Assembly (NCBI GenBank): GCA_022841365.1
Contig: JALHRP010000044.1
Span: forward strand, 1 to 33,410
Direction of reading: 5' to 3'
DNA: 33,410 nt
Source of the DNA: Chitinophagaceae bacterium
GTDB lineage: Bacteria; Bacteroidota; Bacteroidia; Chitinophagales; Chitinophagaceae
Part shown: one piece after another, positions 2,488-26,915 of the stretch
Layout: each line of letters opens with the position of its first letter
Numbering within the stretch: the stretch's first letter is position 1
The notes under the pieces: model-generated
Database searches by the model: none
What the model was told of the DNA's origin: nothing
Seen by the model: the letters and a program-made list of their open reading frames with translations, nothing else
Made by a program: the position numbers and the translations under genes

Positions 2488-3489
2488 TTAGTTTTTAGAT
2501 ACAGATTTTTTTTGTTTCTCCCTGTAATCTTTAATGGGACCGTAAGGACCAAATTTATGTTGCTGTTCACTAAATGTATCTGCATAAGGACCAAACGGAT
2601 GATCAACCGGTTTTTTTGAAACATCGGGCCAGTCATTGCTCAGGTCTTTTGATGGACGTGGTTGTGAGTTAACATATGCTGCCACATCCCATGCTTCTTC
2701 ATCACTTAACTGTGGTGCATGATAATCTGTTTCCTGCGGCATGTTATTTTTTACATAACCGGCGAATCTCGACAAACGAAATAATCCGGCGCCGGTATTA
2801 TAACTGTTCTTTCCCCATAAAGGCGGATAAGTGTAGGTGATCCCATCTATGTTTAACTGCCCCTCACCATTTGATGCATGACAGGTTTCACATTTTTGTA
2901 CAAATACTGTTTTGCCTTTAACAGGATCGGCAGCACGGTTGAGATAAGGAAGATCTGCAATGCCTGAGCCTTTTGGCTTTTCACCTTTGTTTATATCTTC
3001 GCCCAGCCATTTGATATATGCATACATGGCCTGTATTTCTTTTGAAGTTGTATCAAGTGCCGTTCCGTTTAAACTTCGTTCAATACAATCATTGATGCGT
3101 TTGTAAATTGTTTCAATACCACCGGAGCGATCTCTGAATTTTGGATAGGTACTGTACACCGCTGCATAGTTGTTACCCCATGGTTTTGTGCCCGCCTGTA
3201 AATGACAGTTCTGGCAGTTCATCCCATTGGTTATCTGCATCACCGAACCTTTTGGACCCAGATACTTTGCTGTGTTGGATATTAATTGATGACCATACCA
3301 GATGAGTTTCCCATCCGGCCTTGAATAATATGGAATTTGACCGGCGGATGGTCCAACCCAAACCGGTTGCTGAAAAATTGAATCAACAGATCCGGTTTCT
3401 TTTGTGGTTGATTCTTTGCAGCTATACTGAACAGAACTGATCAATAGCAACAGAACAATGAAAACTGTTATGGTTTTTTGCATTGTCAT
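2488..3489 (-). CDS. TsdA-like dihaem c-type cytochrome lipoprotein (thiosulfate dehydrogenase family)
   Basis: 333 residues. A signal sequence ends in SSVQYSC, so Cys24 is a likely lipidation site and the protein is probably membrane-anchored and periplasmic. Haem 1 motif is C92-QN-C95-H96 and haem 2 motif C200-ET-C203-H204. The stretch GMNCQNCHLQAGTKPWG and the later RINDCIERSLNG match TsdA proteins. Cys135 lies exactly 39 residues after the haem 1 histidine, the spacing of the unusual cysteine axial ligand in TsdA. Met in KNNMPQE is a candidate haem 2 ligand. TsdA enzymes interconvert thiosulfate and tetrathionate; a SoxA-like role in feeding SoxB is the alternative. The start at 3489 could also be Met3 at 3483. 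Confidence 0.8.
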   Translation of the reverse strand: MTMQKTITVFIVLLLLISSVQYSCKESTTKETGSVDSIFQQPVWVGPSAGQIPYYSRPDGKLIWYGHQLISNTAKYLGPKGSVMQITNGMNCQNCHLQAGTKPWGNNYAAVYSTYPKFRDRSGGIETIYKRINDCIERSLNGTALDTTSKEIQAMYAYIKWLGEDINKGEKPKGSGIADLPYLNRAADPVKGKTVFVQKCETCHASNGEGQLNIDGITYTYPPLWGKNSYNTGAGLFRLSRFAGYVKNNMPQETDYHAPQLSDEEAWDVAAYVNSQPRPSKDLSNDWPDVSKKPVDHPFGPYADTFSEQQHKFGPYGPIKDYREKQKKSVSKN

Positions 3490-3505
3490 TCAACAGTGCT
3501 TGTAT

Positions 3506-4060
3506 TTAATGCGGCAACTGATCTTTAAATTTACCATATACCCACGTACCTGCAATGGCACTTAACAATGTTACGGCAATAACTGTAGCGCCGTTTCCTA
3601 TCTGTGCAAATAACGGTCCGGGACAAGCGCCTGTTACAGCCCAACCTAAACCAAAGAGTAAGCCACCGTAAATCTGTCCTTTGTGAAATGATTTTTTAGC
3701 AAAACTAATGGGTTCGCCATAAATGGTTTTGATCTTGAATTTTTTGATGATCCATACACTGATGGCGCCTACAATAATGGCCGACCCAATGATGCCATAC
3801 ATGTGAAAGCTCTGTAACCTGAACATTTCCTGAATACGGAACCAGGAAATAATTTCTGCTTTTACAAAGATGATCCCAAACAGTAAACCGGTAAACGCAT
3901 ATTTAAAATTATGCCACCAGGGATGTGACAATTCTGAATCATTGGAGCAGGCAATTTCCGGAGAAGACATTTCAATAGCAGTATTTCTTTTCATCAGCTT
4001 AGTTTCTTGTTCTCCGGTATAATTGATATCTGTTATTTCGTTTTTTAATTGTTCCATCAT
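3506..4060 (-). CDS. YeeE/YedE family membrane protein, second half
   Basis: 184 residues from ATG 4060. The open frame continues upstream, but that part is antisense-like sequence inside the neighbouring transporter gene. A hydrophilic N-terminus of about 55 residues is followed by about four hydrophobic segments. The family motif GLLFGLGWAVTGACPGP carries the conserved cysteine used for substrate relay in YeeE/YedE (TsuA-type) thiosulfate transporters. It starts 7 bp after the preceding YeeE half stops, so the two are translated together and probably form one transporter. Substrate (thiosulfate or another small sulfur compound) is inferred from family and context. Confidence 0.85.
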   Translation of the reverse strand: MMEQLKNEITDINYTGEQETKLMKRNTAIEMSSPEIACSNDSELSHPWWHNFKYAFTGLLFGIIFVKAEIISWFRIQEMFRLQSFHMYGIIGSAIIVGAISVWIIKKFKIKTIYGEPISFAKKSFHKGQIYGGLLFGLGWAVTGACPGPLFAQIGNGATVIAVTLLSAIAGTWVYGKFKDQLPH

Positions 4061-4067
4061 TCGTGCT

Positions 4068-4637
4068 TTAAAGATTAAGAATAAATGGAAGTATGAGGTT
4101 GGCCATAATAAATCCACCTGCCATAAAGCTGATAGTTGCAACAAGTGATGGCCATTGTAACGTAGAGAGACCCATGATGGCATGTCCGCTGGTACAACCG
4201 CCGGCATACCGGGTGCCAAAGCCTACAAGAAAACCACCTGCCACCATCATAATAAAACCACGCAGTGTAAATAAATTGTTCCAGCTGAAAATTTCCGTTG
4301 GCATTAATGTATCATAGTTTGTAATGCCATATGTAGCAAGCTCTGCACTCAGATTTGGGTTTACTGTCATTGGCTCGGGGTTTTGTAAAAACAGAAAAGC
4401 AAGAAAGCCTCCTAAAAAAATTCCCGCTGCAAAAAATAAATTCCAGATTTCTTTTTTCCAATCGTAGCTGAAAAAAGGAATCTTTGCAGGCAAACATGCT
4501 GCGCAGATATGCCTGAGTGAAGAAGAGATGCCAAAGCTTTTGTTACCAATGAGAAGCAGTGTGGGTACTGTTAACCCAATTAACGGACCGGCTACATACC
4601 AAGGCCAGGGTTGCTTAATAAATTCAATCAGGTTCAT
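4068..4637 (-). CDS. YeeE/YedE family membrane protein, first half
   Basis: 189 residues, with about five hydrophobic segments. Conserved cysteine motifs are [10 protein letters not shown] near residue 45 and [19 protein letters not shown] near residue 140; these are hallmarks of YeeE/YedE sulfur-compound transporters. Together with the following 184-residue half it makes up what is one fused protein in some other bacteria. It is the first gene of a five-gene unit (YeeE half, YeeE half, TsdA-like cytochrome, soxB, dsrE-like), preceded by a predicted operator and -7 box. Confidence 0.87.
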
Positions 4638-4660
4638 GAATCATTTCGTTTATGTTTCTG

Positions 4661-4704
4661 CAAGTTAGTTAACCTGCTGCCGGAAATGTGTGATAAAAAT
4701 TACA
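4661..4704 (-). promoter_or_regulatory. Crp/Fnr-type operator and promoter of the YeeE-cytochrome-soxB-dsrE unit
   Basis: Positions 4689-4704 read TGTGATAAAAATTACA, one base from a perfect TGTGAT-N4-ATCACA palindrome. On the minus strand TAACTTG at 4667-4661 resembles the -7 consensus. The operator centre is 35.5 bp upstream of the end of that box, matching the SQR promoter layout. The first start codon of the unit is at 4637. Confidence 0.58.
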
Positions 4705-4751
4705 TTGAATAAAATGCTTCTGCATGCTGCAGAAGTACGAAGATTATTAAA

Positions 4752-4973
4752 TCAATTGTTGTTCGAAACTTCGTCCGGTTCTTTTGTTTGCTTTGGTTGA
4801 AACATCTTGTTCACCAATGCACCCATTACAGAAAAATACAGCATGCTTCGTACCGGACTTGAGGTAATTAAACAAGTGCCATCGCAGCCATAGAATTTCC
4901 AGTAAAAGAAACCGGCAATTGCTCCGGTTATTAAACCGGGTAAAATCCATTTCAGGTTTAATCGCTTCAACAT
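4752..4973 (-). CDS. DUF6132 family small membrane protein
   Basis: 73 residues with two hydrophobic segments. The motif YWKFYGCDGTCLITSSPVRS with two cysteines is typical of DUF6132, a family of unknown function common in Bacteroidota. Its ATG shares one base with the TGA stop of the upstream rhodanese gene (TGATG), so translation is probably coupled. It ends the thioredoxin-CstB-rhodanese unit. The two cysteines and the operon context suggest a role at the membrane in sulfur transfer or sensing, but this is only inference. Confidence 0.8.
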   Translation of the reverse strand: MLKRLNLKWILPGLITGAIAGFFYWKFYGCDGTCLITSSPVRSMLYFSVMGALVNKMFQPKQTKEPDEVSNNN

Positions 4974-5281
4974 CAGTTAAGTTTATTATTTAAAGATACC
5001 CATGAACCGCCATTGTATACCTCAACACCGGCCTGTTTCAGGATAGATGCAGCAGCACCGCTGCGCATACCGCTTGCACAGCAGGTAATCACAGGTTTTC
5101 CTTTCTTCTTGATATCGTTGATTTTTGAGCTGATCTGATCAACAGGAATATTAACAGCATCTTTTAAGTGACCACTACTGAATTCACCGGCAGTACGCAC
5201 ATCAATAATGACTGCTCCGTTTTGTTTGAGCGATTTAAAATCTATTCCTGCCCCAAATAGTTTTTTTAAAATATTGAACAT
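4973..5281 (-). CDS. Single-domain rhodanese-like sulfurtransferase
   Basis: 102 residues from ATG 5281. A TTG at 5320 would lengthen it but would overlap the upstream gene. The domain shows VIIDVRTAGEFSSGHLKDAVNIP and the active-site loop ITCCASGMRSGAAA, where the first or second cysteine sits at the persulfide position of the CxxGxRS loop. No signal peptide, so it is probably cytoplasmic. Rhodaneses carry sulfane sulfur from donors such as persulfide to acceptors. It lies 17 bp after the CstB-like gene and overlaps the DUF6132 gene by one base, so it is part of the same sulfur-handling operon. Confidence 0.88.
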   Translation of the reverse strand: MFNILKKLFGAGIDFKSLKQNGAVIIDVRTAGEFSSGHLKDAVNIPVDQISSKINDIKKKGKPVITCCASGMRSGAAASILKQAGVEVYNGGSWVSLNNKLN

Positions 5282-5298
5282 GTTTTTTGTTATTCGAT

Positions 5299-6720
5299 TT
5301 ATAAAAGTGTTGTTGGACAAACGTAATCAGTGAGGTTAAATTTGCCACTGTCTTTCATTGCTTTAAAACCACCACGCACATCAACGAGGTTATCATAACC
5401 ACGGGCACGGAGTATGGATGTAAAGATCATTGAACGGTAACCGCCTGCACAATGCACATAACAGGTTTTGTTTTTATCAACCTTTAACATGCTGTCGTTA
5501 ATAAAGTCTAAGGGTGTGTTTTCTGCATTCATCAGATGTTCGCTTTGATACTCACTTTCTTTCCGTACATCCAGAATAGCTGTATTGTTATTTTTTGATA
5601 CAATTTCTGCCAGCTCTTCTGCCGATACACGTTTAATCTGATCAATTTCTTTGCCCGCTTCTTTCCATGCATTGAAACCGCCTTTCAGATAGCCCAGTGA
5701 ATAATCGTAACCAACACGGGCCAAACGGGTCACCACTTCTTCTTCACGACCTTCGTCTGTAACCAATAAAATTTCCTGTTTTACATCCGGTATCATACTG
5801 CCCACCCATGGAGCAAAGCTTCCATCAATACCAATGTTGATGGAATTGGGTACAAATCCTTTTGCAAAAATTTCTGCATCTCTGGTATCGAGAATTAACG
5901 CACCTGTTTCGTTGGCAGCGGTTTCAAATGCTTCCGGACTAAGAGCCTGTGTGCCACGTTTCAATACTTCTTCAATACTGTCGTACCCATGAATATTCAT
6001 CATTACATTCAACGGAAAATATTGCGGAGGTGCAGTTAATCCTGTTGTTACTTCTTTGATGAATTCTTCTTTGGTCATGTTGGCACGCAATGCATAGTTG
6101 CTTGCTTTTTGATGACCTAGTGTATCGGATGTTTCTTTGCTCATGTTTTTACCACATGCACTTCCTGCACCATGTGCCGGATAAACAATTAACTCATCGG
6201 CCAATGGCATAATCTTGTTACGCAGCGAATCATACAAATAACCGGCGAGCATATCCTGTGTAAGATCGGTTGCAATTTTTTGTGCAAGATCGGGCCGGCC
6301 TACATCACCAATAAACAATGTATCACCTGTGAAAATGGCAATCTCTTTTCCCTGTTCATCTTTCAACAGGTAACAGGTACTTTCCATGGTATGGCCGGGT
6401 GTGTGCAACACTTTAAATGTAAGCTTACCTACTTTTAACTCTTCACCATCTTTTGCAGAGTGAAATTCAAAATCGGGTTGTGCATTTGGACCGTACACAA
6501 TTGTTGCACCTGATTGTTTTGCAAGATCAATATGGCCGCTTACAAAATCGGCATGGAAATGTGTTTCAAATACATACTTGATCTTTGCATTGTTACGTTT
6601 TGCTTTTTCCAGGTAAGGCTTTACTTCACGCAACGGATCAATGACCACTGCTTCACCATCACTTTCAATATAGTAGGCACCTTGTGCAAGGCATCCGGTA
6701 TAAATCTGTTCAATGTTCAT
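5299..6720 (-). CDS. CstB-like persulfide dioxygenase with two rhodanese-homology domains
   Basis: 473 residues. Residues 1 to about 245 form an ETHE1/persulfide-dioxygenase-type metallo-beta-lactamase domain: TH54-F-H56-A-D58 followed by FVSGH, then LHTPGHTMES and FTGDTLFIGDVGRPDL. A rhodanese-homology domain at about 265-355 has no cysteine in its loop (LLVTDEGREEE), so it is a pseudo-rhodanese. A second at about 370-465 has CYVHCAGGYRSM and is probably active. This three-domain order matches CstB, which oxidises persulfides to thiosulfate. The protein is cytoplasmic. It is the second gene of the thioredoxin-CstB-rhodanese-DUF6132 unit, 22 bp after the thioredoxin gene. Confidence 0.9.
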   Translation of the reverse strand: MNIEQIYTGCLAQGAYYIESDGEAVVIDPLREVKPYLEKAKRNNAKIKYVFETHFHADFVSGHIDLAKQSGATIVYGPNAQPDFEFHSAKDGEELKVGKLTFKVLHTPGHTMESTCYLLKDEQGKEIAIFTGDTLFIGDVGRPDLAQKIATDLTQDMLAGYLYDSLRNKIMPLADELIVYPAHGAGSACGKNMSKETSDTLGHQKASNYALRANMTKEEFIKEVTTGLTAPPQYFPLNVMMNIHGYDSIEEVLKRGTQALSPEAFETAANETGALILDTRDAEIFAKGFVPNSINIGIDGSFAPWVGSMIPDVKQEILLVTDEGREEEVVTRLARVGYDYSLGYLKGGFNAWKEAGKEIDQIKRVSAEELAEIVSKNNNTAILDVRKESEYQSEHLMNAENTPLDFINDSMLKVDKNKTCYVHCAGGYRSMIFTSILRARGYDNLVDVRGGFKAMKDSGKFNLTDYVCPTTLL

Positions 6721-6742
6721 AAGAAGATTTTTATTTTTTGAA

Positions 6743-7048
6743 TTACTGTTCGATTATTTTTTCAAGCTGATGTACTAACTGATGTGCCGGCACTACACCT
6801 GCCTGTCTCCAGATTATTTTCCCGTTTTTAAAAATAAGTAAAGCCGGTATACCTGTTACATGATATGCCTCAGCAGCAGCAGGATTAGCGTCAACATTTA
6901 TTTTGATGATTCTTGCATGATCTCCAACCTTTTGTTTTACTTCTTCCAGAATGGGTTTCATTGTACGGCAGGGCCCGCACCAGTCAGCATAAAAATCAAC
7001 TAAAACAGGTTTATTGCTGTTAATGATATCTGTAAATGTTTGATTCAA
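6743..7048 (-). CDS. trxA: Thioredoxin with TTG start
   Basis: 101 residues, the usual thioredoxin length. The active site WC24-GP-C27 lies in VLVDFYADWCGPCRTMKP, and the cis-proline motif is VTGIPALLIF. The start is TTG at 7048: upstream codons in this frame contain no ATG before a stop at 7076-7078, and the protein begins in family register. Thioredoxin could reduce the persulfides formed on the rhodanese, CstB or DsrE partners. It leads the four-gene unit and has a predicted operator 46 bp upstream. Because the gene symbol covers many paralogues, its exact role is inferred from context. Confidence 0.88.
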   Translation of the reverse strand: MNQTFTDIINSNKPVLVDFYADWCGPCRTMKPILEEVKQKVGDHARIIKINVDANPAAAEAYHVTGIPALLIFKNGKIIWRQAGVVPAHQLVHQLEKIIEQ

Positions 7049-7093
7049 GGTTTCTGATTTTTTGTAAAGCTCCCATCATTTGATGGAGTAAAC

Positions 7094-7109
7094 TATGACT
7101 TTAGTCACA
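7094..7109 (-). promoter_or_regulatory. Crp/Fnr-type operator upstream of the thioredoxin-CstB unit
   Basis: The sequence TATGACTTTAGTCACA is an imperfect palindrome with TGTGA-N6-TCACA spacing. Its centre is 53 bp from the thioredoxin start codon, almost the same as at the SQR promoter. No good TAnnTTTG box was found at the expected place (around 7059-7066 the minus strand reads TACAAAAA), so promoter strength may depend on the activator. Confidence 0.5.
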
Positions 7110-7112
7110 TAA

Positions 7113-7149
7113 CCTCACCCTCGTTCCCTCTCCTCCAGAGAGGGAGGCC
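7113..7149. repeat. Palindromic dispersed repeat (CCTCACCC / CCCTCTC hairpin class)
   Basis: CCTCACCC is followed by the hairpin CCCTCTC-CTCCA-GAGAGGG (7126-7144). It is the same class as the repeat inside asnB at 17386-17418, in opposite orientation. It lies in the 174-bp gap between the thioredoxin and TauE/SafE genes, just upstream of the operator. Confidence 0.65.
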
Positions 7150-7222
7150 AAACTAATGTATAACTATGTTCCAATTGCTGACACTTTAACAACATCACTG
7201 GAATTGACTTTGGTAAGTTTAA

Positions 7223-8020
7223 TTATCTAATGAGTAGTTCTTTCACAATAATGTAGATCCCCATTACCAATACAAACCAGCCAAACCCCTTTTTCAGTTT
7301 ATCGCCGGATATTTTTTTGCTGAGTGTGTTACCGATGAGGATACCTGTAATGGCCAGCAGGGTTACAATGATCAGGAGTTTCCAGTCAATTACCTGATGC
7401 CCCACATCGCCCAAAAAACCAATCAGTGATTTAGCTGCTATAATTAATAATGAAGTGCCAACTGCCTGTTTCATGGGTAATTTGCTGAGCAATACCAATG
7501 CAGGAATGATGAGGAAACCACCACCGGCACCAACCAATCCTGTTAAGATGCCAACAACAGCTCCTTCAACCAAAATCAAGGGATAATTAAATTGCTGTTC
7601 GCCTCCGTTGCTATTTTCATCTTCGTTCTTTCCTTTGATCATGGAGTACGATGCAAAAACCATCAGCACAGCAAACAGCAGCATCATTAAAATGGGTTTG
7701 GTTACTGTGAAACCTGCAAGGGTGAATACTTCATCAGGAATAGCCGGTACAATCCATTTTCTTGTAGCATAAACAGCGGCAATGGCGGGTGTGCCAAAGA
7801 TCACTGCTGTTTTTATATTCACCAGTCCCAGTTTGTATTTTGGAATAACGCCTGCGAGAGAAGTTGCACCCACAATAAATAATGAATACGCTGTTGCCAA
7901 TACCGGATTAACGCCAAACAGATACACCAATACAGGCACGGTTAATATGGAGCCGCCACCACCAATAAGCCCGAGCGAAATACCAATAACAACAGATGCG
8001 ATATAGCCGATTATTTCCAT
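7223..8020 (-). CDS. TauE/SafE (TSUP) family sulfite exporter-like membrane protein
   Basis: 265 residues with about eight hydrophobic segments and the internal duplication of the family: GISLGLIGGGGSILTVPVLVY near the start and VGILTGLVGAGGGFLIIPALV in the middle. TSUP proteins move sulfite, sulfoacetate or related anions across the inner membrane. In this island it probably exports sulfite or another oxidised sulfur product made by the CstB-like enzyme (inference). It is a single-gene unit with its own operator, between the thioredoxin unit and the regulator gene. Confidence 0.9.
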   Translation of the reverse strand: MEIIGYIASVVIGISLGLIGGGGSILTVPVLVYLFGVNPVLATAYSLFIVGATSLAGVIPKYKLGLVNIKTAVIFGTPAIAAVYATRKWIVPAIPDEVFTLAGFTVTKPILMMLLFAVLMVFASYSMIKGKNEDENSNGGEQQFNYPLILVEGAVVGILTGLVGAGGGFLIIPALVLLSKLPMKQAVGTSLLIIAAKSLIGFLGDVGHQVIDWKLLIIVTLLAITGILIGNTLSKKISGDKLKKGFGWFVLVMGIYIIVKELLIR

Positions 8021-21530: not shown

Positions 21531-22424
21531 ATGAGAATTGCCTGTCTGCTATTATTTATCGGTTTCAGCTATTCGATACAAGCTCAAACAGTTACAGTTG
21601 GAGGGCAGTGTATGCCTAGCAACATCACCCTGAATAAAATAACAGATATTAATGGTAAGTCAGCTTATCAGGGAACAGGAACGGTTGATGGCATCCCCGG
21701 TGTAACTGTAAGTATTTACTGGATTGGAGCGCCGGATAATGTGTGGGTTCTGGATTTTGATGGTCAGCCTTATTATTTTGATGCATGTAACACAACTGAA
21801 CCTACTGGTACTGCCAATTCAAGTTGCCCCTGGAATGTGGTGGGTGGTACAAGTTGTACCGGAGCATCGGCTTTGTTTATTTCAGGAGTAGTAACCTTAC
21901 CGGCGGAAATGGTTAGTTTCTCCGCTCAAAAGAATAATAACGATATAGACTTAGTCTGGAAAACGGCATCTGAGAGTAATAATAAAGGGTTTGAAATTCA
22001 ACGAAGCATTGATGCGGTTAACTGGAAGGCCATTGGTTTTGTAAATGGAGCAGGTACCTCATCAGTTGAAAACACATACAGATTTACAGACAAAGCAGCT
22101 CTTGCCGGAAAAAATTACTATCGGTTGTTGCAAATTGATTTTGATGCAAACAGAAAGTATTCTTCTATAGTAAGTGTTGATCTGCCAAAGAAAGCGTACT
22201 ATTCAATCTTTAATAATCCGGGTAACGGAGTATTTCAGCTAAGAATACATACTCCTGAAAAAGTAGAATTTTCTGTACTTGATTTAAGCGGGCGCAGATT
22301 GATCAGTCAGGTTACGGGAACTGGTGTAATGGAGATAGATCTCAGTAAGCATCCTGCAGGAACCTACATTCTTCACTTAAGAAGAGGCAATGATTTTATC
22401 ACTGAAAAACTGATTAAGCAATAA
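21531..22424 (+). CDS. Secreted protein with type IX secretion sorting domain (type A)
   Basis: 297 residues. Signal peptide MRIACLLLFIGFSYSIQAQ, a Cys-containing N-terminal domain (about 20-125, four cysteines), then the common Bacteroidota linker fold starting LPAEMVSFSAQKNNNDIDLVW (about 125-220), and a C-terminal type A sorting domain of about 75 residues (YSIFNNPGNGVFQLRI, VLDLSGRRL, HPAGTYILHL). The protein is expected to cross the outer membrane by T9SS and be attached or released. The N-terminal domain is not recognised. First gene of a five-gene operon; the next start is 2 bases after its stop codon. Confidence 0.88.
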   Translation: MRIACLLLFIGFSYSIQAQTVTVGGQCMPSNITLNKITDINGKSAYQGTGTVDGIPGVTVSIYWIGAPDNVWVLDFDGQPYYFDACNTTEPTGTANSSCPWNVVGGTSCTGASALFISGVVTLPAEMVSFSAQKNNNDIDLVWKTASESNNKGFEIQRSIDAVNWKAIGFVNGAGTSSVENTYRFTDKAALAGKNYYRLLQIDFDANRKYSSIVSVDLPKKAYYSIFNNPGNGVFQLRIHTPEKVEFSVLDLSGRRLISQVTGTGVMEIDLSKHPAGTYILHLRRGNDFITEKLIKQ

Positions 22425-22425
22425 C

Positions 22426-23016
22426 ATGAAATTGAATCATAACAGCAGACGAAGTTTTTTAGCCAATGCAGCAATGCTTACGGCAGGGTTTGCAATTGCC
22501 TCTCCATCTCAACTTTTTGCACAACCTGCTGCAATCGATGATCTGAAGGAGAGCTGGAAAAATTTCTGTCAAACACAAAACGGGCAATTGTTTAATCAGC
22601 CAATGCAGTTACATGATCGGGCTCTTTCATTTGTATGTAAGGGTCATCATGTTTATACGGGTGAAATCATTTCTTTTGATGCAGAAAATATCATTGCACA
22701 GCCCATATGGATTTATTGGGGCGAAAAGAAGACTGTACCCAATGATGTGATCATCACATTCTTTTCAACAAACGGGAAAAAACTTTTCAGGATCAACCGC
22801 TTTGAGTTAGAGGGATTACAGCAACTGGCCAACGATGGAGGTCATGTGGATCTCATTTCTTTACTGCAAAGAGAGCGAACAGCTGTGTTACCAAAAAGTG
22901 AACAGCGATCATTGCTTGTGAAAACAGAAATCCGTAACAATCATGAAGTACGGATAAATAGCTTTTCAGGACAGCACATTTTTAAGATTGAAAAAAAACT
23001 AAACTATAACGCTTAA
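22426..23016 (+). CDS. Exported hypothetical protein with Tat-like signal
   Basis: 196 residues, not recognised. The N-terminus SRRSFLANAAMLTAGFAIASPSQLFAQ has a twin arginine and a hydrophobic stretch, so Tat export is likely. The mature part contains FVCKGHHVYTGEIISFDAEN and WIYWGEKKTVPNDVIITFFS, suggesting a beta-rich fold. It lies between the T9SS-protein gene (one-base gap) and the tail-collar gene (11-bp gap), so it is co-transcribed and may act on or with one of these. Confidence 0.78.
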   Translation: MKLNHNSRRSFLANAAMLTAGFAIASPSQLFAQPAAIDDLKESWKNFCQTQNGQLFNQPMQLHDRALSFVCKGHHVYTGEIISFDAENIIAQPIWIYWGEKKTVPNDVIITFFSTNGKKLFRINRFELEGLQQLANDGGHVDLISLLQRERTAVLPKSEQRSLLVKTEIRNNHEVRINSFSGQHIFKIEKKLNYNA

Positions 23017-23027
23017 ACTATTTTATT

Positions 23028-23552
23028 ATGCCTGCTGAACCGTTTATATCAGAAATTTTCATGGCCGGAATGAACTTTGCTCCCAGAGGATATTCCTTTT
23101 GTAATGGGCAAACCATATCAATTGCTACAAATACTGCGTTGTTTTCTCTCTTAGGAACAACCTTTGGCGGTAATGGCACCACCACATTTAATTTACCTGA
23201 TTTACGGGGCAGGGTTCCAATGGGACAAGGAAGCGGGCCCGGTCTTACACCCAGAACTTTAGGTGAAGTGAGTGGTACAGAAACGGTTACATTGTTAAGT
23301 ACGCAAATGCCTGCTCATACACATTCACTTCTTGCAGTATCTGATCCTGGAGATGCTTCTGCGCCACAGGGGAACTTACTTGCAAACAGTGGTGCGTTAG
23401 ACAAGGAATATAAATCAACAGGTACAGTTGTTGCCATGAGCCCTTCAGCTATTGGTATTGCAGGTGGTAGCCAGCCACATTCAAACATTCAACCTTACCT
23501 TGTTGTTAATTTTTATATTGCTACAGAAGGTATTTTCCCCAGCCGTAACTAA
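23028..23552 (+). CDS. Phage tail collar domain protein (MdpB-like)
   Basis: 174 residues. The tail collar signature is clear: FISEIFMAGMNFAPRGYSFCNGQ, LFSLLGTTFGGNGTTTFNLPDLRGRVPMG, then LLSTQMPAHTHSL and a C-terminal QPYLVVNFYIATEGIFPSR. Relatives occur in phage tail fibres and also as stand-alone bacterial proteins sometimes called microcystin-dependent protein. There are no other phage genes here, so this is probably a chromosomal, non-phage member. No signal peptide is present. Confidence 0.9.
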   Translation: MPAEPFISEIFMAGMNFAPRGYSFCNGQTISIATNTALFSLLGTTFGGNGTTTFNLPDLRGRVPMGQGSGPGLTPRTLGEVSGTETVTLLSTQMPAHTHSLLAVSDPGDASAPQGNLLANSGALDKEYKSTGTVVAMSPSAIGIAGGSQPHSNIQPYLVVNFYIATEGIFPSRN

Positions 23553-23564
23553 CAATATTATTAA

Positions 23565-24146
23565 ATGAATAATCCGTTGCAGGAATGGTGGCAACAACTG
23601 GAGCCCCAATGGCAAACTGCATTTTCAATCACAGTATTTCAACATAACAATGAGCCAACTCCGGAGGAGTTGGCTCAACTTTATGCCGCTCCTGCTTTAC
23701 GGTTTGCAGGGCCTTCTGCTCCCTATCCGAATATGAATTTTGAACTTACCAATTTATCGGGTGTTGCAGCATTACAACATCTTGAAACACTGGTAGCGGT
23801 ATTTCAAAAAATTGAAACTGTTCAGGAAGTAAAACATCTTAAAACATTAAAGCATTTATTTCTTTACAATAACCTCATTTCTTCTCTGGATGGTATTGAA
23901 GATCTTACAGCGCTTGAAATGCTGTATGTGCAGGATAATCAGGTCATCTCCATTCATCAGGTACAAAAACTGCAAAACCTAAAAGAGCTTTACATTAACG
24001 GCAACCGGATAGAAAATCTCGATGGTTTAACTGAAGAGCATGCAGATAAATTACAGATGTTCATTTGCAAACCTAACGATCTGTTGAAACAAAAAGAATT
24101 GCTTCGGGTTGAGCGGGAGCTGGGTATCCGTTGCAGAAGTTTGTAA
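23565..24146 (+). CDS. Leucine-rich-repeat protein
   Basis: 193 residues. About four SDS22-like repeats at roughly 65-160 (LKTLKHLFLYNNLISSLDGI, LTALEMLYVQDNQVISI, LQNLKELYINGNRIENLDGL). The N-terminal part (MNNPLQEWWQQLEPQWQTAF) with a Trp-rich start is typical of LRR proteins of this kind. No signal peptide, so cytoplasmic; a role in protein recognition is likely. It is 12 bp after the collar gene and 20 bp before the sulfotransferase gene, in the same operon. Confidence 0.85.
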   Translation: MNNPLQEWWQQLEPQWQTAFSITVFQHNNEPTPEELAQLYAAPALRFAGPSAPYPNMNFELTNLSGVAALQHLETLVAVFQKIETVQEVKHLKTLKHLFLYNNLISSLDGIEDLTALEMLYVQDNQVISIHQVQKLQNLKELYINGNRIENLDGLTEEHADKLQMFICKPNDLLKQKELLRVERELGIRCRSL

Positions 24147-24166
24147 AGAATTATGCAGTATTAGCA

Positions 24167-25135
24167 ATGAATAAACAGTATAACACTTTGTTGAAAGGCT
24201 GGATTCCGTGGAGGCTGATCAGAGAAGAAGAAAAGATGTACTGTGAATGGTTGTTCACCGGCTACAAATTATTTACTGAACCGTTTTTTGATGATACCAT
24301 CCGTGTTTGCCGCACAATGAACGAAAACCGGCAGAAATTCAAAGCAGTATCTGATCTTGAGTTCATCTCAAATTGTTGTTCACAGGATTATGCAGCGCAG
24401 ACAACTGCAGTTATTTTTCATGTTTCACGTTGCGGCTCAACATTACTTTCACAAATGCTCAGCTGTAATAACCGGCATGCAGTTCTCTCTGAAGTTCCTT
24501 TTATTGATCAGTTGCTTCGTTTACATTATACACATGAACATTATAAGGCGGAACAAATTGAACAATATGTAAAAGCATCTGTAGGTTTGTATCATTATCA
24601 GCCGCAACAAACACATCTTTTTGTGAAAACCGACAGCTGGCACCTGCATTTTTATGAACAGTATCGGAAACTATATCCTGATGCACTTTTTGTTTTACTG
24701 TACAGAGAGCCTGCAGCCGTTATTCAATCTCAACAAAAGCAAAGAGGACTTCATGCTGTTCCGGGATTAGTAGAGCCGCAATTATTTGGTTTAAATGTTA
24801 CAGAAAGAGAATACAGCAATTTTGATTTGTATATGGCCGATGTGCTGCAGACTTACTATCAGAAAATGATTGCCATTGCATCGGGCGATGTAAATGTATT
24901 GCTTGTTAACTACAGTCAGGGAATGCAATACATCATTGCTGAAATGTATCGCTTACTTAAACTTGATCTGGATACCGAAACTGAACATCTGTTTGAAGAA
25001 CGAAACCGGTTTCATGCAAAGCGCCCTGATCAGATTTTTACAGATGAAAAACTAACTGCTGAATTACCTCCATTTCTTACACGCTGCTATCAGTTATACG
25101 ACCGTTTGGAGGAGCTCCGTCTTGCAAAAGCTTGA
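24167..25135 (+). CDS. Sulfotransferase family protein
   Basis: 322 residues from ATG 24167; an earlier ATG at 24131 would overlap the LRR gene. The PAPS 5'-phosphate loop is FHVSRCGSTLLSQML at about 84-98 and the 3'-phosphate region is LLYREPAAVIQSQQK. Such enzymes move sulfate from PAPS to a hydroxyl or amino group of sugar, peptide or small-molecule acceptors in the cytoplasm. The acceptor is unknown. It is the last gene of the five-gene operon and its 3' end overlaps the convergent APS kinase gene by 59 bp; that kinase makes the PAPS donor. Confidence 0.85.
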   Translation: MNKQYNTLLKGWIPWRLIREEEKMYCEWLFTGYKLFTEPFFDDTIRVCRTMNENRQKFKAVSDLEFISNCCSQDYAAQTTAVIFHVSRCGSTLLSQMLSCNNRHAVLSEVPFIDQLLRLHYTHEHYKAEQIEQYVKASVGLYHYQPQQTHLFVKTDSWHLHFYEQYRKLYPDALFVLLYREPAAVIQSQQKQRGLHAVPGLVEPQLFGLNVTEREYSNFDLYMADVLQTYYQKMIAIASGDVNVLLVNYSQGMQYIIAEMYRLLKLDLDTETEHLFEERNRFHAKRPDQIFTDEKLTAELPPFLTRCYQLYDRLEELRLAKA

Positions 25136-25643
25136 TGCAATATTGAAGCAATTGCTGTACACAACTGTCTGCATCGGTGTTGGAAGTATCAATGATCAGG
25201 TCAGGATTTTCAGGCAATTCATACGGATCATTAATGCCTGTAAGATTCCTGATCTTCTGCGGGTCATCATCCGGCAACAGCGCTTTCTGATACAATCCTT
25301 TTGTATCCCGCTGAATGAGTACAGGAACACTGCATTTGATCCATATCAGTTTAGCGTTGTAATTGTGTTTCAGTTCCTGTCTTGTTTCCTCAAATGGATT
25401 AATCGCTGCAATCACAGCAACTTTCTGTTGTTTACAAACCTGATCAGCTACATGCCCCAGTCTCCGGATATTTTCTTTTCTGTCGGGAATACTGAAACCA
25501 AGGTCTTTGTTCAACGTCTTTCGGTATACATCTGCATCAATGACTTCTGCGGCAACGTTAATCTGCGTTAATTGCTGTTGCAATGCTGTTGCAAGGGTTG
25601 TTTTGCCGGCACCGGATAAACCTGTCATTTGCAGAATAATCAT
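25077..25643 (-). CDS. cysC: Adenylylsulfate (APS) kinase
   Basis: 188 residues. The P-loop is GLSGAGKTT (8-16); further motifs are VIDADVYRKTLNKDLGFSIPDRKENIRRLG, a mobile-lid region with KGLYQKA, and TGINDPYELPENPDLIID, all typical of APS kinase. The usual SPYR region reads NPFEETRQ here. The enzyme phosphorylates APS to PAPS, the donor for sulfotransferases. ATP sulfurylase genes are not present in the window, so APS must come from elsewhere. It is the third gene of the beta-hydroxylase/HExxH unit, 28 bp after the preceding gene. Confidence 0.92.
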   Translation of the reverse strand: MIILQMTGLSGAGKTTLATALQQQLTQINVAAEVIDADVYRKTLNKDLGFSIPDRKENIRRLGHVADQVCKQQKVAVIAAINPFEETRQELKHNYNAKLIWIKCSVPVLIQRDTKGLYQKALLPDDDPQKIRNLTGINDPYELPENPDLIIDTSNTDADSCVQQLLQYCIKLLQDGAPPNGRITDSSV

Positions 25644-25671
25644 GCGTTGTAAAATATGAAAAGTAAGAAAA

Positions 25672-26166
25672 TCAATCTCTCAACCATTTACACATGGCCG
25701 GATAATTTTCAGCTGAGTTGGGCGAGCCTGTAACCGTCATCCCCAGCCATTGCAACACAGGAACTCCGAAATAACGGCCTCCATCAAAGTCATCAATAAT
25801 TTGTTTGCCTCCGCCTTTATACCCCTTCTCATGAAACACAAATGCAGGATCTATTGCAAGATGTTTGCAGGCAGCATAGCTCCATGCAATGGCCATCATT
25901 TCTTCAGCAGCATCATCTATTCGTGTGGCGATATCTGAACCGGAGATCGTATTTCGCTCAGATGATGGAATAACAGCAAGATGAGCCGCTTCATGAATAA
26001 GATCACCGGGGTATTTCAGTATTGTTTTATCAATCAGAATTTTGCCATTGCTGATAAAAAGTCCGGGTAAAAAACATGCTTCATTCTGCAGATCACAGCA
26101 TATTACTTCAAGCCCGATAGTTTGAATGAATTGAATGGATGTAGAAAGCAGCAAATCGTTGTTCAT
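25672..26166 (-). CDS. Hypothetical protein with HExxH metalloprotease-like motif
   Basis: 164 residues, family not recognised. H58-E-A-A-H62 in DLIHEAAHLAVIPS is a zinc-peptidase-type motif, and E88/E89 in DAAEEMMAIAWSYAA, 26 residues later, could be the third ligand as in gluzincins. No signal peptide. A proteolytic function is possible but not shown. Its ATG overlaps the TGA stop of the beta-hydroxylase-like gene (ATGA), so the two proteins are probably made in coupled amounts and work together. Confidence 0.75.
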   Translation of the reverse strand: MNNDLLLSTSIQFIQTIGLEVICCDLQNEACFLPGLFISNGKILIDKTILKYPGDLIHEAAHLAVIPSSERNTISGSDIATRIDDAAEEMMAIAWSYAACKHLAIDPAFVFHEKGYKGGGKQIIDDFDGGRYFGVPVLQWLGMTVTGSPNSAENYPAMCKWLRD

Positions 26167-26915
26167 TCCGTTTCTTTTTCCATTTTATCTGCAAGTTCAA
26201 GTGAAGTTACAGTATTCAGTAAGCGCAGTTGGGCAATAATCATTTGTTTTTGTTTGCTTTGAAATACAGGTTGTTGTTCCTCTTCAACTTGTTTCGTGCA
26301 AAAAGTGTTTGTTGCGAATTGCTTGTTCAGCCAGTCATTAACTTTACAATCTAACACAAGATGAATTCTGTCTGTATGGCCGAAGTTATTGATACGGTGT
26401 TTCAGCGTAAGATTCAGATACCAGCACTCGCCTTCCTGCATCAGTATACGTTCATCAGAAAGAAAAAACTCAACAGCCGGATTAGTGCTTACAGGAATGT
26501 GAAACCGCACCTCTCCATCTTCAAAACTTAAATCATGATCGCTGTGTTCTTTAATAACTGCGCCTGCATCCAGTTTCATTAATCGTACAGATGTTTTTTC
26601 GCATTGAAAGAAATTTAAAACTGAACGGAGATAGGTACATTGTTTTAGCAAGACAGTATCCTCATATGAAGGGGTTGTTGTTGCAGCTGTTGCATGAATG
26701 GAAATGATATTATCCATACTTCCGTTAATGGAACGGAGAGGCAGAATGGTCCAACCACCTTCGTAATGGGCTTTGTTGTAGTGTGCTTTCCAAAAACCAC
26801 TTTCGAGCAATGCAACTTCCTGTTGCATTTTTTGCACATCAAACTGTTTGTTTAACTGTAAATACTTAATCAAAAAATGAAGGTTTTGGTTGCACTGTAA
26901 ATTAATCGTTTTCAT
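26163..26915 (-). CDS. Aspartyl/asparaginyl beta-hydroxylase-like 2-oxoglutarate oxygenase
   Basis: 250 residues. The N-terminus (YLQLNKQFDVQKMQQEVALL) and GGWTILPLRSING fit the family. Iron-binding His124 in IKEHSDHD, followed by EVRFHIPV, and His173 in LKHRINNFGHTDRIHLVLD form the double-stranded beta-helix core; Arg in the last motif can bind 2-oxoglutarate. Relatives hydroxylate aspartate or asparagine side chains or small amino-acid substrates. First gene of the minus-strand three-gene unit. Its start is only 16 bp from the divergent uvrB start. Confidence 0.85.
   Translation of the reverse strand: MKTINLQCNQNLHFLIKYLQLNKQFDVQKMQQEVALLESGFWKAHYNKAHYEGGWTILPLRSINGSMDNIISIHATAATTTPSYEDTVLLKQCTYLRSVLNFFQCEKTSVRLMKLDAGAVIKEHSDHDLSFEDGEVRFHIPVSTNPAVEFFLSDERILMQEGECWYLNLTLKHRINNFGHTDRIHLVLDCKVNDWLNKQFATNTFCTKQVEEEQQPVFQSKQKQMIIAQLRLLNTVTSLELADKMEKETE

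Follow-up and report, generated by a model that had tools for sequence, protein, structure and literature searches.

In the RaxX-RaxST system of Xanthomonas, a tyrosine of a small peptide is sulfated, no hydroxylase is known to take part and there is a dedicated exporter. As far as the accessible text of two reports goes, the gene cluster of the RaxX peptide also encodes the enzyme that sulfates it (PMC6637879), and human AspH, a hydroxylase of the PF05118 family, binds its metal with two histidines and has its target in an epidermal growth factor (EGF)-like domain (PMC6817910). Here we describe a locus that combines an AspH-like oxygenase, a sulfotransferase and an adenosine 5'-phosphosulfate (APS) kinase with a phage-tail-collar protein, encoded in two convergent operons (positions 21531 to 26915) of a 33,410-nucleotide stretch of contig JALHRP010000044.1 from a Chitinophagaceae bacterium (GCA_022841365.1); this whole stretch is hereafter called the window. 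We consider it probable that the operon pair makes a tail-collar protein whose C-terminal asparagine is beta-hydroxylated and then O-sulfated.

The operon oxygenase shares with human AspH the PF05118 family, the RxH motif, the 2-oxoglutarate (2OG) arginine and, on our reading, an Asp/Asn target residue; it differs in being a single domain of ~236 aa with an HxD...H motif and no TPR domain found, and its proposed target is the C-terminal residue of the collar instead of an EGF-like domain. The closest solved structures, L-proline cis-4-hydroxylase (4p7w; profile search, 7e-21) and proline 3-hydroxylase (1e5r; 1e-10), belong to enzymes that act on free proline and not on the end of a protein. 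With T4 gp12 and related phage fibres (1ocy, 8kec) the window collar shares the collar domain and an HxH motif corresponding to the HKH of gp12, but it is a 174-aa bacterial protein co-encoded with modifying enzymes, and no phage tail module was seen in the window. A weak Foldseek match (E = 2e-3) is C24 of Bizionia argentinensis (6ov6), a collar-like fold from a Bacteroidota source, which the accessible part of its description presents as a temperate-phage receptor-binding protein. Unlike in RaxX-RaxST, the covarying residue here is asparagine, the operons encode no transporter, and the oxygenase is proposed to create the acceptor hydroxyl before sulfation. Literature searches (for broad queries, among the matches listed, and with subscription papers mostly outside their reach) found no description of the system; as far as we have seen, the enzyme folds are known, whereas the target and the system are new.

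The last residue of the collar covaries with the presence of the hydroxylase. Counted by genome (n = 130), at least one collar ending in -RN is found in 54 of the 55 genomes with the enzyme versus 19 of the 75 without it (4.6e-19); the lone exception ends in -RD, so that an Asn or Asp end occurs in 55/55 versus 39/75. These 130 genomes are those with fetched collars that were complete and scored at least 100 bits, the window collar being added by hand and other collar genomes left out. As a safeguard against choosing a pattern by eye, every alignment column with at least 60% of rows occupied was tested for each residue seen at least 5 times (312 collars, 1108 tests). C-terminal Asn was the top correlate of the hydroxylase (p = 5e-33), followed by C-terminal Ser as a negative correlate (1e-11) and penultimate Arg (1e-7); outside the tail, no column did better than 3e-7. 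An overlapping set reduced at 85% identity, which included the named hydroxylase loci (the best 80 of 114 confirmed when named genomes were searched with the hydroxylase alignment), gave 9.6e-31 for C-terminal Asn versus 3.2e-9 for the best column elsewhere. The chemistry fits the proposal, since an Asp/Asn hydroxylase covaries with Asn/Asp, and the likely substrate is therefore the C-terminal Asn of the collar, a site that an earlier sequence-only reading of this DNA had left unnamed.

We propose that the collar, once translated, would fold with an exposed FPSRN end, possibly as a trimer, which is assumed by analogy with the trimeric T4 gp12. The 2OG/Fe(II) oxygenase (PF05118) would then beta-hydroxylate the C-terminal Asn174 (Asp in a minority of loci), the operon APS kinase would make 3'-phosphoadenosine 5'-phosphosulfate (PAPS), and the sulfotransferase would move sulfate from PAPS onto the new hydroxyl to give an O-sulfo-beta-hydroxy-Asn C-terminus. 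Hydroxylation of Asn174 is likely on the sequence evidence, and sulfation at the same site somewhat less so. More speculatively, the decorated collar may act at the cell surface, together with the exported proteins of the plus-strand operon, as a chemically tuned binding tip, a role that we put forward only tentatively; the zincin-like protein might process or trim, and the leucine-rich-repeat (LRR) protein might be an accessory. The features concerned, whose family assignments come from Pfam and NCBIfam profile searches, are as follows.

21531..22424, plus strand: type IX secretion system (T9SS) cargo, 297 aa, with a Sec-type N-terminus (by eye), a conserved ectodomain and a C-terminal type A sorting domain (TIGR04183, 9.8e-13)
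22426..23016, plus strand: exported protein with a twin-arginine translocation (TAT) signal (SRRSFL), 196 aa (TIGR01409, 1.3e-3)
23028..23552, plus strand: tail-collar (MdpB-like) protein, 174 aa, the proposed substrate (PF07484, 8.5e-27), with HxH at residues 97/99
23535..23549, plus strand: codons of the collar C-terminal FPSRN, with Asn174 as the proposed hydroxylation and sulfation site (from the column scans)
23565..24146, plus strand: LRR protein, 193 aa, a sub-type-specific partner (LRR_4, 6.1e-15)
24164..25135, plus strand: sulfotransferase (Sulfotransfer_3, PF13469, 8.4e-9), in a frame open from TTG 24131
25077..25643, minus strand: APS kinase, the presumed PAPS supplier (APS_kinase, PF01583, 2.7e-41; TIGR00455 above cut-off)
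25672..26166, minus strand: zincin-like protein, 164 aa, with HExxH and a downstream Glu
26163..26873, minus strand: Asp/Asn beta-hydroxylase-like 2OG oxygenase (Asp_Arg_Hydrox, PF05118, 2.7e-15), 236 aa from TTG or 250 aa from ATG 26915

The eight open reading frames (ORFs) and their families had been reported by the sequence-only reading, together with short gaps in the plus-strand operon, and the ORF list of the window and the profile searches bear this out: the gaps are 1, 11, 12 and 17 bp when ATG 24164, which relatives fit better than TTG 24131, is taken as the sulfotransferase start. The convergent genes of the sulfotransferase and the APS kinase share their 3' ends (25077-25135), and those of the zincin and the hydroxylase overlap by 4 bp. 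Because relatives begin at the TTG position, the hydroxylase probably starts at TTG 26873 and not at ATG 26915.

In a first-pass table, collars ended in Asn/Asp in 35/36 cases when the hydroxylase was in the locus, in 44/52 when it was elsewhere in the genome and in 20/82 when the genome had none. Five of the eight exceptions with the hydroxylase elsewhere come from G045, which has weak hydroxylase matches only (1.5e-8) and was scored positive in this table and negative in the pair tests and later scans. In the named loci, whose genomes are partly shared with the other rows, 99/100 collars end in Asn/Asp. A FastTree collar tree was built without the last seven residues, and independent pairs were taken on supported branches. 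Left out were 22 duplicates, 3 collars with low scores and 1 with an open end (in the test with phylum rows added, 1 long collar and 1 with a low score). Of 13 such pairs differing in hydroxylase status, a mean of 9.3 had Asn/Asp changing in step with the enzyme and 0.0 had it changing against the enzyme (median p = 0.004); with genomes outside the named loci only, 6.0 of 9 pairs changed in step (median p = 0.031). Within one genus, all 3 collars of G086, which has the enzyme, end in Asn, versus 0/18 in its enzyme-free congener G171. The eighteen collar genes of G171 lie together (L148, contig positions 488980-500192), in a genome without detected hydroxylase, and their C-termini vary widely. 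Outside Bacteroidota, in Pseudomonadota and Verrucomicrobiota, 21/21 collars in hydroxylase loci end in -RN (18 from named loci plus 3 from two Pseudoalteromonas records with identical tails, counted once). Conversely, in 18 fetched plasmid records of 70 that matched the collar, none with a hydroxylase in the fetched stretch (the status refers to that stretch and not to the whole host genome), 8/47 collars end in -RN (2.3e-11 for the contrast), and every one of the 18 has at least one collar with another end.

The genes also travel together. A collar lies within ~10 kb in 57 of the 80 named hydroxylase loci, along with a sulfotransferase in 41, a zincin in 34, a formyltransferase-like protein in 34 and an APS kinase in 25, counts that are lower bounds because several loci stop at a contig end; of 56 loci scored separately for hydroxylase plus collar, 44 are from Bacteroidota, 10 from Pseudomonadota and 2 from Verrucomicrobiota. 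The window-type arrangement with an LRR gene occurs in 9/80 loci, all nine of which hold the T9SS cargo, TAT protein, collar and hydroxylase, while the zincin is present in 8 of them, the sulfotransferase in 7 and the APS kinase in 6, and 5 combine all eight families. Flavisolibacter nicotianae and Ferruginibacter paludis are cultured relatives with a complete eight-gene locus. The eight-gene set is thus more than chance, and the sequence-only reading, which would have fallen had the set not been conserved together in related genomes, is upheld on this point by gene neighbourhood. The genome of the window and those of 58 relatives, 59 in all, include 9 with the hydroxylase and 16 with the collar domain. 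Three relatives are syntenic with the window, although their loci are less complete: both sulfation genes, for sulfotransferase and APS kinase, are absent from the locus in L042 and L043, and the APS kinase gene in L044. Others carry the same families in looser clusters, with two or three collars and often a periplasmic-binding-protein-like and a formyltransferase-like protein. It should be noted that some genomes count twice in locus counts, as a genome stretch and as a named locus (e.g., L042 and L058).

In a family sample of 244 genomes, 32 have the hydroxylase, 77 a collar and 30 both, so that collars occur in 30/32 hydroxylase genomes versus 47/212 others (Fisher, 2.6e-15); one of the two collar-less hydroxylase genomes has a weak match (4e-4). 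A phylum sample of 395 genomes, which shares a few genomes with the family sample, gave 25 with the hydroxylase, 100 with a collar and 23 with both (23/25 versus 77/370; 4.5e-13). By the coordinates among the matches listed, hydroxylase and collar lie within ~7 kb of each other in 15 of the 32 family-sample genomes and on other contigs or far apart in another 15; with both genes unlinked in 15/32, the association is more than neighbourhood.

The sulfotransferase completes this pattern. It scores 36.4 bits against PF13469 (cut-off 27) and keeps SRCGST and LYRxPxxVIxS, which we take to be the PAPS-binding motifs, in 4/4 sequences; it and the APS kinase are the genome's only PF13469 and PF01583 matches, respectively (E<=0.001). 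Of the 24 family-sample genomes that match the sulfotransferase, 21 do so strongly (E<1e-70) and all 21 have the hydroxylase (p = 1e-22), whereas the three weak-match genomes lack it; collar, hydroxylase and sulfotransferase thus form a nested series, a pattern to be expected if every step depends on the one before it. Hydroxylase and sulfotransferase are, moreover, fused in one protein in five genomes, as hydroxylase-sulfotransferase in Segetibacter aerophilus (L098 = L189), G265 (L179), G101 (L328) and Duganella (L132) and in the reverse order in Oceanospirillum (L128), and the two enzymes therefore belong together. A GNAT-hydroxylase fusion is present in L091. In Diaphorobacter (L350, 7983-9875), a 630-aa annotated sulfotransferase that matches the hydroxylase profile (94 bits) is a probable further fusion; it adjoins an IPTL-CTERM protein, and no collar lies in the stretch. 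The sequence-only reading had suggested that a protein side chain would be hydroxylated and then sulfated at the expense of PAPS, and this finds support in the five-genome fusions and the 21/21 nesting, both read from sequence. Could the three genes nevertheless be passengers, co-inherited without a joint function? Related genomes are over-represented in our samples and the pair test on the phylum rows alone is not significant (see below), yet fusions in two orders, co-occurrence of unlinked genes, the same rule in other phyla and the agreement of independent pairs make shared ancestry alone very hard to credit.

The hydroxylase itself scores 57 bits against PF05118 (cut-off 22.6), and its best named match is from Lacibacter luteus (78% identity), whose locus has no sulfotransferase. 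Seven residues (H124, D126, H173, R183, R137, H139 and R111, numbered from 26915) are invariant in 36/36 family members, the putative metal and 2OG ligands being assigned by motif and spacing, with no superposition. According to the accessible text on human AspH (PMC6817910), Lys666 and Arg688 form salt bridges with the carboxylate of the substrate Asp; by spacing and the RxH motif they correspond to the invariant R111 and R137. The counterpart of AspH Ser668 is Met or Leu, and the other substrate-carboxylate and 2OG positions map to invariant residues (36/36). Conservation of R111 and R137 fits a carboxylate-bearing substrate, such as a C-terminal residue would be, but falls short of proof. 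No other Pfam match was found in the protein at E<=1; being single-domain and without the AspH-type TPR architecture, it is a PF05118 enzyme and not an AspH orthologue.

PF05118 also includes enzymes acting on small molecules and lipids, and the nearest solved relatives are the proline hydroxylases, so the hydroxylase and sulfotransferase might instead tailor a small molecule or lipid that the collar binds or displays, with the C-terminal Asn in a co-evolving binding tail. We regard this as unlikely: the position that covaries holds precisely the residues on which the family acts, Asn/Asp, and its signal far exceeds that of any other column, and by Pfam the window operons contain no biosynthetic backbone gene.

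Aligned collars terminate in G-I/V-F-P-S-R-N, with the Arg that precedes the C-terminal Asn (Arg173) highly conserved, and H97 and H99, a putative metal site by motif, are invariant in 50/50 aligned sequences and align with the HKH of T4 gp12 (profile alignment). A predicted model (mean pLDDT 78, pTM 0.52) matches the cyanophage A-1(L) and T4 gp12 fibres in Foldseek (8kec and 1ocy, as above). Its last four residues have a mean pLDDT of 64 versus 92 for the preceding ten, a lower predicted order that is compatible with a free C-terminus. In PHROG, the collar matches chiefly tail and tail-fibre families, four further proteins scanned match none, and no phage structural match besides the collar was found among 19 window proteins scanned. 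With no tail module seen in the window, a prophage origin of the locus was rejected. A defence system was likewise rejected: of the eight proteins, just the APS kinase had PADLOC matches, and these were weak. In one plasmid record (L349), a collar lies near a phage tape-measure gene; most neighbours in related loci were outside the scan.

The HExxH protein has no Pfam match above cut-off and no PDB relative (best E 0.89); its HExxH and downstream Glu are invariant in 20/20 aligned zincin sequences, the window's included. In one genome (L096/L187) it is fused to the hydroxylase, and in four Flavobacteriales loci (L097, L127, L129, L130) zincin-hydroxylase pairs occur with no collar within 10 kb. 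A co-encoded and once fused HExxH protein, a proposed modified residue that is terminal and preceded by a highly conserved Arg, and hydroxylase relatives that act on a free amino acid would suit a scaffold akin to those of ribosomally synthesized and post-translationally modified peptides (RiPPs), in which the collar is a carrier and a protease, be it the zincin or another, cleaves off the modified Asn behind Arg173 to free an active amino acid or short peptide. However, a carrier would need less than the large, conserved collar fold, which has an HxH site of its own and structural relatives among phage fibres; no exporter or peptide ligase is found in the window operons (Pfam), and the zincin is present in only 34/80 named loci. 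RiPPs have a short precursor with a leader and a cleaved core, while the proposed substrate here is a 174-aa folded domain. Release of the residue is accordingly improbable, and modification of an Asn that stays on the collar is the reading we retain.

Several observations weigh against that reading. The phylum sample alone is weaker (Asn/Asp ends in 41/53 collars with the enzyme versus 30/89 without; 7.5e-7), in part because some hydroxylase genomes carry a second collar cluster with other ends; with all rows, this sample included, 14 independent pairs gave a mean of 6.4 going the same way (median p = 0.031), and phylum rows alone gave 6 pairs with p = 0.5. In genomes with the hydroxylase, 16/137 collars end otherwise, some of them in a second cluster, and since Asn/Asp also ends 50/176 collars in genomes without detected hydroxylase, C-terminal Asn alone is no marker. 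G136, without the enzyme, keeps -RN in 2/3 collars, like its congener G208, which has it. As to sulfation, the five fusions are a count of genomes and not of independent origins; the sulfotransferase half of L128 is a custom-profile match only (152 bits), with no Pfam match. Sulfation would be optional, as the close kin L042 and L043 hold collar and hydroxylase in a locus without the two sulfation genes, and among hydroxylase-positive collars the sulfotransferase has no strong residue signal (best p = 2e-5, 843 tests), so that the sulfation site follows solely from fusion and nesting. Finally, no signal peptide was seen by eye on the collars, which leaves their path to the surface unexplained. 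The Pfam match of the L132 sulfotransferase half is slightly below cut-off.

The -RN ends kept in 19/75 genomes without the enzyme could mean that the Asn has an older role, for example in trimer packing or secretion, and that the hydroxylase targets another collar residue or the T9SS cargo or TAT protein. We find this quite improbable, as no second collar column approaches the C-terminal signal and T9SS-type and TAT partners are present in only 15 and 9 of the 80 named loci, respectively. The TAT protein gave a poor AlphaFold2 (AF2) model (pLDDT 63.5) with no PDB match at E<=0.001. Close family members of the T9SS cargo occur in 14 fetched loci and the LRR protein likewise in 14, some genomes having been fetched twice. 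The sequence-only reading had cast the LRR protein as the recognition factor for the modifying enzymes; the LRR type is confined to 9/80 loci, and collar and hydroxylase travel without it in several phyla, so this part of the reading has to be given up as a general rule, while its core, hydroxylation and sulfation of a protein side chain, is retained as probable.

In other Bacteroidota loci, L045-L055 among them, a periplasmic-binding-protein-like protein is a frequent collar partner (73 fetched loci, some genomes twice); it has no evident signal peptide, and its C-terminus resembles GWxNxYLC (9 aligned). A formyltransferase-like protein is another (70 fetched loci, some genomes twice), and its gene correlates with a Gly near the collar N-terminus (p = 1e-9), which could hint at N-terminal formylation but is possibly phylogenetic. 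Among plasmid records from Pseudomonadota, Deinococcota and Bacillota (L333-L349), a GNAT protein lies near collars in 10/15 annotated stretches. A large protein of Ig-like, VCBS, FG-GAP, choice-of-anchor or DUF4347 type is likewise found near the collars in 10/15 of these stretches, which suggests a collar link to secreted or surface proteins. Two Azospirillum records (L342, L343) show a collar triplet beside lasso-peptide-like genes (B2 protein, asparagine synthetase family) and 2OG oxygenases, and in Tateyamaria (L345) three collars ending in -RS, -RN and -RS lie beside a carbamoyltransferase and an annotated sulfotransferase, with no hydroxylase in the stretch.

Where a carbamoyltransferase is in the locus, 6/10 collars end in Asp versus 1/146 without it (156 hydroxylase-positive collars, reduced at 85% identity). 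In G295, G599 and G607, which have a carbamoyltransferase beside an unlinked hydroxylase, no fetched collar ends in Asp, and the carbamoyltransferase-Asp rule is a hint only. The last collar residue could be a dedicated, swappable chemical display site to which different cassettes add different groups (hydroxylase plus sulfotransferase on Asn, hydroxylase plus carbamoyltransferase on Asp, and other 2OG oxygenases, GNAT or formyltransferase elsewhere), an extension that we hold to be possible but doubtful.

The operon pair is flanked by an acyl carrier protein (ACP) phosphodiesterase and an acetyl-CoA hydrolase/transferase family protein (Pfam), with UvrB, a ParA-like ATPase and DNA polymerase I as further neighbours by eye, in a source genome of 4.56 Mb and 326 contigs. 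In the window, no RNA feature was found at Rfam gathering thresholds and no tRNA, and promoter and terminator scans gave no more matches than in shuffles. Possible sulfur-metabolism genes (SoxA/TsdA-type cytochrome c, rhodanese-metallo-beta-lactamase, TauE-like) lie at 2488-8020, ~13 kb off the sulfation operon.

COG4675 proteins have been detected in a soil metaproteome, some of them assigned to Pedobacter, as far as the accessible text of that study goes (PMC5579227). Because trypsin cuts after Arg173 and removes the last residue, the modified residue would escape standard proteomics. The hypothesis specifies one residue, two mass shifts and two enzymes. If it is true, proteins can carry a C-terminal residue whose side chain is first hydroxylated and then sulfated, a type of modification that would be new, and collars listed in public records as tail fibre protein or microcystin-dependent protein (COG4675) would acquire a concrete biochemistry. 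Should the more doubtful notion of a swappable display site also hold, bacteria would be diversifying a phage-derived binding head by post-translational chemistry and not by sequence.

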